From: Bacteroidales bacterium
GTDB taxonomy: Bacteria; Bacteroidota; Bacteroidia; Bacteroidales; UBA932
DNA: 64,000 nt
Assembly: GCA_015060225.1 (NCBI GenBank)
Contig: SUYX01000002.1
Location: 1 to 64,000 of the forward strand
Direction: 5' to 3'
Position numbers and translations under genes: made by a program. Below, piece by piece: positions 3,855 to 34,102 of this stretch; the first letter of the stretch is position 1, and each line of letters starts with the position of its first letter. Under the pieces are notes generated by a model, which had not been told where the DNA came from, did not search any database, and saw only the letters and a program-made list of their open reading frames with translations.

Positions 3855-3889
3855 ATATTTGCAATAATTAAATTCCAATAATGTAAAAT

Positions 3890-3976
3890 ACCGTTTCCCT
3901 GCGCTGTCATTATACATTTCAGGTTCATAGGGTATATTCTCAGCTTTGCCTCCTGTGGCTCAGCACCCCTAACAGC
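3890..3976 (-). promoter_or_regulatory. TPP riboswitch (THI-box)
   Basis: The minus strand holds the conserved THI-box pieces in order: AGGGGTGCT, GCTGAGA, ATACCCT, GAACCTGA, AGGGAA. P1 can form between GCUGUU (3971-3976) and AACGGU (3890-3895). The 3' P1 strand overlaps the antiterminator segment, so TPP binding (P1 formed) should free the terminator at 3820-3854 and switch off the methyltransferase-thiM-thiE/tenA-thiL operon. The motif set is established; the switching scheme is inferred from base pairing. Confidence 0.93.
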
Positions 3977-3980
3977 ATTG

Positions 3981-12359: not shown

Positions 12360-12380
12360 CGGATAAATGAATGAATAGAA

Positions 12381-12493
12381 GAACCGGTAGAATATTGATA
12401 CTGACAGCATAATTCGACGGTTGCGAGTTATTTCTCATGAAATGACGAAGCAGAGGAGACTTCGAGCTGTTAGAATCAATATTCTGCCGATTC
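12381..12493 (+). ncRNA. Structured repeat element, copy 1
   Basis: A ~27-bp basal stem pairs 12381-12408 with 12466-12493 (one or two mismatches, two G.U pairs). It encloses a core with 5' strand ATAATTCGACGGTTGC, an inner hairpin GTTATTTC/GAAATGAC (12427-12434/12439-12446) and 3' strand AGCAGAGGAGACTTCGA. The core strands are identical to copy 2 at 33991, whereas both stems differ but still pair. G.U pairs favour plus-strand RNA. Sits between convergent genes, before a U-rich stretch, so it may end the M28 transcript. Confidence 0.75.
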
Positions 12494-12508
12494 CTATTTT
12501 TGAGGTAT

Positions 12509-14533: not shown

Positions 14534-15538
14534 TTATCTGTAAAAATTTTTAACGAAGGCTGCATAGTTTTTCTTACCAAGCACACAAATGTTCCACCAT
14601 CCTGTCAAAAATCCGGTACCATAACCAGAAAGCTGTGTAAATGAGGCTACTATAGCATATAATGAAGTTTTAAAACCTCTCTTGTCCATTGCTGCATCTG
14701 TAAATATTATCAGACATAACAGAATTATCGGGAATAAAAACCAAAAACTTAAAATAGTTGACATCATGATAAGGAATATACACCCAAGTACAAATAGAGC
14801 AGGAAGCATATGTACCGGTTTGAGTGTTCCGGGATGTCTCTTCGTAAGGTGTATTCTGGCTATTCCTGAATTGAATACCTGTTTGAAAAAAGTTTTTAAT
14901 GTATTTCTTCTCTTGTGGTACACCCATGCTTCGGGAAAGAAACGGCTGTCATATCCCCCCTCCTTTACTTTATAACTGAAATCAACATCTTCACCAAACC
15001 TCATGTTGGAGAATCCCCCGATTTCATCAAATACACTCTTCTTTATACCCATATTGAATGTCCTGGGATAGAATTTGTCTGCACTTTTCCTGTTTCCCCT
15101 TATTCCACCTGTAGTAATTATTGAGGTCATGGAATAGTCTATAGCTTTTTGTAATGTAGTAAATGACGGATGGGAACGGTCTGCTCCTCCAAATAGTTGG
15201 CATTCGCATTTTTCAAGTTCCCCTACAACAGCTTCAAAATAGTGGTCAGGAATAATACAGTCAGAATCAAAGAAAAGTAGCCACTCCCCTTTTGCCTTTG
15301 CTGCACCCCAGTTGCGGGCCTGTGCCGGTCCTCCGTTTTCTTTGTAACAGTATGTTATTTCAATAAGGCCGGAATAATCTTTGCACACCACATCACACTT
15401 GACAGATGAACCGTCCTCTACAATAATCACTTCAAACTCCCGGTTATGTTGTCGGGAAAGGCTGTCAAGAAGTTCCTTTACTTCATGAGGTCTGTCATAC
15501 ACAGGTATTATAACTGAAAACTTGGGTAAAACATTCAT
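14534..15538 (-). CDS. Family 2 glycosyltransferase, membrane-anchored
   Basis: 334 residues. GT-A domain: FSVIIPVYDRP at the N-terminus, IIVEDGSS, the DxD-type FFDSDCIIP (UDP-sugar/metal site), and GGFSNMRFGEDVDFSYKVKEGG (base region). Residues about 245-310 hold two or three hydrophobic segments that place it at the membrane. Probably adds a sugar to a lipid-linked or surface glycan; the acceptor is unknown. Stand-alone, promoter TAAATTTG at 15561-15568 (minus). Confidence 0.88.
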   Translation of the reverse strand: MNVLPKFSVIIPVYDRPHEVKELLDSLSRQHNREFEVIIVEDGSSVKCDVVCKDYSGLIEITYCYKENGGPAQARNWGAAKAKGEWLLFFDSDCIIPDHYFEAVVGELEKCECQLFGGADRSHPSFTTLQKAIDYSMTSIITTGGIRGNRKSADKFYPRTFNMGIKKSVFDEIGGFSNMRFGEDVDFSYKVKEGGYDSRFFPEAWVYHKRRNTLKTFFKQVFNSGIARIHLTKRHPGTLKPVHMLPALFVLGCIFLIMMSTILSFWFLFPIILLCLIIFTDAAMDKRGFKTSLYAIVASFTQLSGYGTGFLTGWWNICVLGKKNYAAFVKNFYR

Positions 15539-33990: not shown

Positions 33991-34102
33991 TTAGAATTAA
34001 ATAATTAACCCTGCCTGCATAATTCGACGGTTGCTAGCTATTGCACAGCAATGGCGTAGCAGAGGAGACTTCGAGCAGGTAGGGTTAATTATATAATTCT
34101 AG
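33991..34102 (+). ncRNA. Structured repeat element, copy 2
   Basis: Basal stem of about 26 bp: TAGAATTA and TAATTAACCCTGCCTGC on the 5' side pair with GCAGGTAGGGTTAATTA and TAATTCTA on the 3' side (one mismatch, G.U pairs). The core repeats copy 1 exactly in both flanking strands, but the inner hairpin is GCTATTGC-ACA-GCAATGGC (34037-34055), so pairs changed together relative to copy 1. Also between convergent genes (trmH-like and rlmB). Confidence 0.75.

Follow-up and report, generated by a model that had tools for sequence, protein, structure and literature searches.

The window, that is, the whole 64-kb stretch of Bacteroidales DNA that was analyzed, contains two copies of a hairpin element, and each copy lies between convergent genes. 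Copy 1 is flanked by an M28 peptidase gene and a PIG-L family gene, and copy 2 by two SpoU-family rRNA methyltransferase genes (Pfam assignments). The two copies are the top two of the 14 inverted repeats listed for the window, and their parts are given below with the basis of each assignment.

12374..12500, + strand: copy 1, whole hairpin, type A (inverted-repeat listing, folding)
12374..12408, + strand: copy 1, left arm, locus-specific (inverted-repeat listing)
12407..12424, + strand: copy 1, core strand 1, conserved 18-mer GCATAATTCGACGGTTGC (sequence match with copy 2)
12427..12446, + strand: copy 1, inner hairpin P3 (sequence, folding, pairing across copies)
12449..12467, + strand: copy 1, core strand 2, conserved 19-mer AGCAGAGGAGACTTCGAGC (sequence match with copy 2)
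12466..12500, + strand: copy 1, right arm (inverted-repeat listing)
33992..34101, + strand: copy 2, whole hairpin, type A (inverted-repeat listing, folding)
33992..34018, + strand: copy 2, left arm (inverted-repeat listing)
34017..34034, + strand: copy 2, core strand 1, conserved 18-mer (sequence match with copy 1)
34037..34055, + strand: copy 2, inner hairpin P3 (sequence, folding, pairing across copies)
34058..34076, + strand: copy 2, core strand 2, conserved 19-mer (sequence match with copy 1)
34075..34101, + strand: copy 2, right arm (inverted-repeat listing)

The first-pass annotation had reported that the two elements share runs of 18 and 19 identical nucleotides, and these were located at 12407-12424/34017-34034 and 12449-12467/34058-34076, respectively. 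Its observation that the inner hairpin and the outer arms differ in sequence between the two elements and still pair was reproduced as well. The inner hairpin pairs GTTATTTC (12427-12434) with GAAATGAC (12439-12446) in copy 1 and GCTATTGC (34037-34044) with GCAATGGC (34048-34055) in copy 2, and the outer arms are 35 nt long with 80% complementarity in copy 1 and 27 nt long with 93% complementarity in copy 2. Folding of the + strand gave z-scores of -8.8 for copy 1 and -10.4 for copy 2, and none of 200 shuffles equaled the native sequence. Elsewhere in the window, a TPP riboswitch at 3879-3980 (- strand) was the sole Rfam match at gathering score, and a tRNA/tmRNA search of the window returned none. 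For the 9-mer TGTCGGGAA, 21 occurrences were counted over the two strands of the window (e.g. at 15450, 22763, 33515, and 42305), against approximately 0.5 expected by our own arithmetic for an even base composition.

The exact two-strand pattern of the core occurs seven times in the window's own draft genome (G000; 2.15 Mb, 86% complete). A covariance model made from 38 copies was searched against 39 genomes of the same genus with a cut-off of E <= 0.001, and it yielded 57 matches in five genomes, with 20 in G000, 12 in G024, 12 in G008, 8 in G015, and 5 in G022. The E-value was below 1e-9 in 49 of these matches, the remaining eight being type C variants (defined below) or half copies. The genome-wide covariance search proposed in the first-pass annotation has found further copies, 20 matches being in the window's own genome. 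When 393 genomes of the order were searched with the model, the window's own genome alone matched, in a search that scored 10 candidates per genome and may have overlooked weak relatives. Scanning 84,980 species genomes for the exact pattern, an approach blind to diverged relatives, gave 24 stretches, each located in one of four Bacteroidales MAGs (Yak_Cecum, Water_deer_Cecum, Roe_deer_Rectum, and SIG149) that match the other four carriers.

The full pattern had no match in viral contigs, and copy 1 had none in plasmid and phage sequences. A 16-mer of strand 2 was present in four viral contigs, which have in common one coding-like sequence that lacks strand 1. Comparison with Rfam gave no family for the elements at gathering score and only weak miRNA-type matches below it, in agreement with the first-pass annotation, which did not recognize a known class, and a literature search (supplements aside) found no description of it. 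So far, the family appears to be confined to one clade of ruminant-type gut Bacteroidales MAGs, which points to a mobile element and not to an ancient class of ribozyme or riboswitch.

Each copy is a hairpin of approximately 112 nt in which a conserved asymmetric core and a short inner hairpin are enclosed by outer arms of approximately 20-30 bp. In type A, to which the window copies belong, CTGCATAATTCGACGGTTGC lies opposite GCAGAGGAGACTTCGAGCAG, and in type B GGGGACCTCATTCGACGGTTGC lies opposite GCAGAGGAGACTGYGTCGTCCCC; type C is type B with approximately 75 extra nt in the 3' strand. Judged by their starts, the 52 collected copies comprise 22 A-like, 29 B- or C-like, and one intermediate copy. 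The plan, from the outside inward, consists of the outer arms (P1), a 5' bulge, a short helix (TCGA/TCGA in type A and CGACG/CGTCG in type B, as read by eye), an asymmetric loop with AGGAGACT on its 3' side, P2 (TTRC/GYAG), an internal loop (GA/GAA, or TA/GTA in some copies), and the hairpin P3. The type C copies at G000:C25, G000:C11, and G008:C56 are located in gene clusters that also include an RHS-repeat protein gene and an immunity-type gene of the SUKH (SMI1/KNR4) family.

When the 23-pair structure was scored over 38 copies, 91.8% of the cells were paired vs. 73.9% in shuffles, none of 500 shuffles reached the native value, and both sides had changed in 16 of the 23 pairs. The proportion of paired cells was 99.3% in P2, 99.7% in P3, and 83.3% in P1, and P2 covaried from TTGC/GCAG to TTAC/GTAG, TTGA/TCAG, and TTGG/CCAG. 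Two U-G wobbles were nearly invariant (columns 40-64 in 38/38 copies and columns 32-73 in 37/38), and the opposite strand would turn both into A-C mismatches. Among the 456 cells of P2 and P3, the non-Watson-Crick cells were 79 G-U, 0 A-C, and 2 other, and folding of the + strand beat that of the - strand in 45 of 46 copies, six long-core copies being left out. As the wobbles of P2 and P3 are all on the + strand, it is a single strand, either RNA or single-stranded DNA, that counts in the core helices.

With regard to genomic position, an upstream gene was called for 50 of the 52 copies, and it was on the same strand as the element in 44. The neighbor genes, which are simple ORF calls, were of the ++ class in 22 copies, the +- class in 21, and the -- class in six (the -- case at G008:C7:3398 is probably miscalled), and three copies had one side uncalled; none of the 49 copies with both neighbors called was at a divergent (-+) site. 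In tandem gene pairs, 22 copies were in sense and 6 in antisense orientation (p = 0.004, raw), or 18 and 5 (p = 0.011) when orthologs and the Rhs group had been collapsed by hand. A same-strand downstream gene was also present for 22 of the 52 copies. There was no enrichment of T 3' of the right arm (T fraction 0.35 vs. 0.34 further out, 46 copies), TTTT was found within 8 nt after the right arm in two of the 46, and at three loci an ordinary-looking terminator, identified by eye, separates the gene from the element. Pfam searches of the four neighbors of the window copies and of six Rhs-cluster genes showed no shared function. The first-pass annotation had compared the core to a ligand-, protein- or ribozyme-type one. 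The conserved strands do face each other, but the copies are beside gene 3' ends and not in the upstream position of a riboswitch, which argues against a ligand-sensing leader.

At a given locus the outer arms change little, and the arms of different loci are almost unrelated. Arm pairing was compared between native arms and arms swapped between copies for 45 of the 52 copies, seven orthologs or near duplicates having been dropped. The mean was -20.0 kcal/mol for native and -6.4 kcal/mol for swapped arms, native arms beat the best 1% of swaps in 33 of the 45 copies, and the weakest native pairing was that of a chimeric copy, G024:C27. Between non-orthologous copies, the identity of the outer left arm was 37% in type A (19 copies) and 36% in type B (20 copies), compared with 32% and 30% in shuffled arms, and that of the 5' core strand was 92-93%. 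At the window loci, on the other hand, the arms of G000 and G024 were 98.4% identical, with one of 64 sites differing per copy; arms and core together showed 2/114 and 1/113 differences vs. 91/776 and 132/776 in the flanks. The other two ortholog pairs displayed no rate difference between arms and flanks (1/64 vs. 7/511 for C43/C12 and 9/64 vs. 147/756 for C63/C44).

In 42 copies, 91% of the 982 outer-arm cells were Watson-Crick pairs, and the others included 25 G-U, 15 A-C, and 48 other combinations. The 25:15 ratio of + to - strand wobbles was not significant (p = 0.15), and the test is a weak one that leans toward G-U, local alignment favoring matches. In a study on B. cereus terminators, G-U is reported as the commonest compensatory intermediate (PMC5381666). 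Selection on RNA would make this intermediate stand out, and its lack of a significant excess suggests that the outer arms were made as inverted copies. The compensatory changes had earlier been taken as a sign of selected RNA or single-stranded DNA structure; the constrained structure and the + strand polarity of P2 and P3 support this view, whereas the outer arms do not carry the usual compensatory mark. The orthologs G000:C63 and G022:C44 differ by one T-A to A-T double change. Identical arms were found at two G008 loci (C26 and C18) and similar arms at two loci of G000:C24, and since some loci share arms, the arms are not new in every jump. The chimeric copy (G024:C27:31904) has a right arm as in its G000 and G022 orthologs and a different left arm and core, as if it had been converted from another copy; its arms barely pair.

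Comparison of sites between genomes revealed both filled and empty states. At the copy-2 site of G006, G022, and G011, the convergent genes nearly abut and there is no hairpin, the longest perfect inverted repeat in 120 nt being 5-7 nt at these empty sites and 12-13 nt at filled ones. In G008 the same site is occupied by a type B copy of reversed orientation, and in G015 by a small insert instead (G015:C13:14500-15700), which, read by eye, is a toxin-antitoxin-like two-gene pair. The copy-1 site of G006 has an ordinary terminator. At the G000:C19 site, the element and extra flanking bases are absent from G006, G015, G022, and G008, which indicates a gain in the G000/G024 line. The arms of this copy, which its distribution marks as a late gain, pair rather weakly (-13.3), and a 6-bp direct repeat, GGTAAA, no longer than expected by chance, borders the copy; G024 seems to have lost the element between the repeats.

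We also considered whether the G024 gaps at C24 site 2 and C19 represent clean insertions in G000. This was rejected, as both look like G024 deletions: site 2 retains an arm homologous to the arm of the neighboring copy, and C19 retains bases that are absent from the outgroups. One arm of C24 site 2 is preserved in G024:C53, together with a fragment of site 3. No clean datable insertion could be read between two near strains, and direct repeats around the copies were not in excess (5.93 vs. 6.05 in swaps), the copies being perhaps too old and their boundaries uncertain.

The copies at G008:C36, G008:C3, and G000:C33 are without the 5' half, and tandem duplications at G000:C36:32300-33500 and G024:C41 cover the 5' half of the core together with the left arm and its upstream flank. 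Both tandem half duplications break at the tip of P3, as if a hairpin tip had been cut. Judged from the sequences, the half losses, the tandem half duplications, and the chimeric copy show a high turnover. The distribution across genomes is patchy: in trees of flanking genes, the copy-free genome G006 groups with G000/G024 (M28 and PIGL) or with G008 (trmB), and the copy-free genome G005 groups with G015 and G022 (M28); the trmA tree did not resolve. At G008:C50:14500-14800, the site of an element in G000, there is a perfect core-less hairpin, GAAGAAATGAACCTGCAGGTTCATTTCTTC, which may represent a product without the core, an ordinary terminator, or the state before insertion.

In a second hairpin family, long arms enclose a core unrelated to the first, CCGCCCGTGGYCTCGTGAACGGGAGGGGCCC, followed by a hairpin and GGGAGGGAT. 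It was found at 17 places in seven of the 39 same-genus genomes (e.g. G000:C33:5897-5929 and G000:C63:7463-7495), and its arm pairing was -26.9 native vs. -10.5 swapped in 17 copies, a set from which one contig-end place had been dropped and to which one nearby extra copy had been added. By eye, the core is possibly pseudoknotted. The gene classes were +- for nine copies, -- for four, ++ for one, and -+ for one, with two uncalled, i.e. there was no sense bias and one site was divergent. That another family is built to the same plan suggests that the pattern is not a single accident.

A search for a mobilizing gene, which covered one transposase family, Y1_Tnp, found none. Y1_Tnp matches were present in 27 of the 39 genomes (all five carriers and 22 of the 34 non-carriers), and strand 1 of the core was near none of the Y1_Tnp loci read, a part of the 62 matches. 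The palindrome ACGTCGTCTTTTTGTACAA and its variants are located beside a Y1_Tnp gene in G000, G024, G008, and G006. This REPIN-like palindrome is also present at the C24 sites of G008 and G024, where G000 carries the element.

The family is dispersed, gained and lost, has a constant core with strand polarity and locus-specific paired arms, and is located at gene 3' ends. We consider it an even chance (probability about 0.5) that the window sites are copies of a non-autonomous mobile hairpin of the REP/MITE type, approximately 112 nt long or slightly more, of which the core would be recognized and the arms re-made on moving. A putative factor, be it a nuclease, a transposase, or a reverse transcriptase, would recognize the single-stranded core, either as single-stranded DNA or as RNA in the 3' end of an mRNA, and copy the element to new sites downstream of stop codons. 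During the move, one arm would be re-synthesized from the other by self-primed or snap-back copying; the arms would then be free to diverge in sequence from copy to copy, with the palindrome remaining nearly perfect, and the core alone would be constant. Where it has landed, the hairpin may protect or insulate the 3' ends of mRNAs in the manner of REP sequences; such a role would explain the sense bias as well as the conservation of the two window copies.

A wider proposal, which we put forward tentatively and regard as doubtful, is that there is a class of mobile hairpins in which the strand-polarized core is the mobile information and each move builds new, nearly perfectly complementary arms by copying one strand. 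The new arm pair would be built by self-primed DNA synthesis or by an RNA-templated step, at least two unrelated cores would exist in the genus, and the moving enzyme would be one not yet known.

The main rival to a mobile hairpin is a host-selected 3'-UTR RNA, that is, a hairpin that is transcribed, that either binds a protein through its core or blocks 3'-5' exonucleases, and that selection has kept where it landed. The presence of a same-strand upstream gene in 44 of 50 cases, the sense bias in tandem pairs, the restriction of core wobbles to the + strand, and the double change between G000:C63 and G022:C44 are all consistent with this explanation. Arms more conserved than flanks at two of four ortholog pairs, both of them in the window, where arms and core are far less diverged than the flanks between G000 and G024, likewise favor host selection. 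However, there was no extra conservation at the other two pairs, the wobbles of the arms have no significant strand bias, and the neighbors tested with Pfam (four in the window and six of the Rhs cluster) have no common function. The presence of the element is also patchy, G006 being matchless though flanking-gene trees put it among the carriers. We regard selection for RNA in place as rather unlikely as the general explanation, though it may apply to individual copies.

An ordinary MITE mobilized by a DDE transposase, its arms being terminal inverted repeats that have diverged, would likewise be palindromic, approximately 112 nt long, intergenic, multi-copy, and gained and lost, and the C19 copy is bordered by the GGTAAA repeat. 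Yet the variable part of the present element is its ends, which are conserved in MITEs, direct repeats are not in excess over swapped flanks, and the C19 repeat is within chance length at a site where the G024 state may be a deletion; we consider a MITE of this kind quite unlikely. It is very unlikely that the core inserts into, or decorates, pre-existing bidirectional terminator hairpins. The sites beside stop codons, 21 of 52 of them between convergent genes, and the core-less hairpin of G008 at the site of a G000 element speak for it, but there is no T-tract (0.35 vs. 0.34; TTTT in 2/46), no hairpin is present at the empty copy-2 sites, an ordinary-looking terminator (by eye) precedes the element at three loci, and some loci have arms in common. 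The lowest probability is given to a REP, i.e. a single-hairpin substrate of a RAYT (Y1 transposase): although every one of the five carriers has at least one Y1_Tnp match and the distribution at 3' ends is REP-like, Y1_Tnp is also found in 22 of 34 non-carriers, and in four genomes a Y1_Tnp locus sits among the ACGTCGTCTTTTTGTACAA palindrome, with strand 1 near none of the loci read.

If the arms are re-made on moving, this would be a form of transposition in which the sequence of a palindrome can change freely with its pairing remaining nearly perfect. Strong covariation could then arise without selection on RNA, which would call for caution in RNA discovery based on covariation. Should the RNA instead be under selection in place, the family would represent a new 3'-UTR structure that accompanies dozens of genes of ruminant-gut bacteria.

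The element resembles REP, BIME, and REPIN sequences in being a short multi-copy extragenic palindrome at 3' ends and between convergent genes that can fold as single-stranded DNA or mRNA. In REPs the repeated sequence is the stem itself, whereas the long outer arms of the present element are locus-specific and only the asymmetric inner core is repeated; moreover, the element has no link to a RAYT at the Y1_Tnp loci read. Mitochondrial double-hairpin elements are also mobile hairpins whose stems vary yet stay paired, but they belong to another genome and have another core; a literature search on them found nothing. Like MITEs, the element is non-autonomous, short, and dispersed, with inverted repeats at its ends. 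The conserved part of MITEs is the ends, while in the element the ends are variable and the middle is conserved, few pairs of copies have common arms, and target duplications are not in excess around the copies (which are perhaps too old).

REPINs are described as mobile miniature DNAs spread by RAYTs (PMC3116915), and REPs are reported to slow 3'-5' decay and stabilize upstream mRNA (PMC5082802). Intrinsic bidirectional terminators share with the element a hairpin just after stop codons with arms that change and stay paired; unlike them, the element has no T-tract, has a conserved core of approximately 60 nt, and shows no significant excess of G-U over A-C in its arms. A human-microbiome screen describes palindromic candidate structured RNAs of approximately 80-130 bp in Bacteroidetes (e.g. 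HMP2_4078), some of which are not predicted terminators (PMC8040213). These candidates resemble the element in their description (palindromic, Bacteroidetes, size), and the family of the element is so far found only in ruminant-type MAGs. What appears to set the element apart from the known repeat families considered here is the combination of a near-constant middle with site-specific arms.
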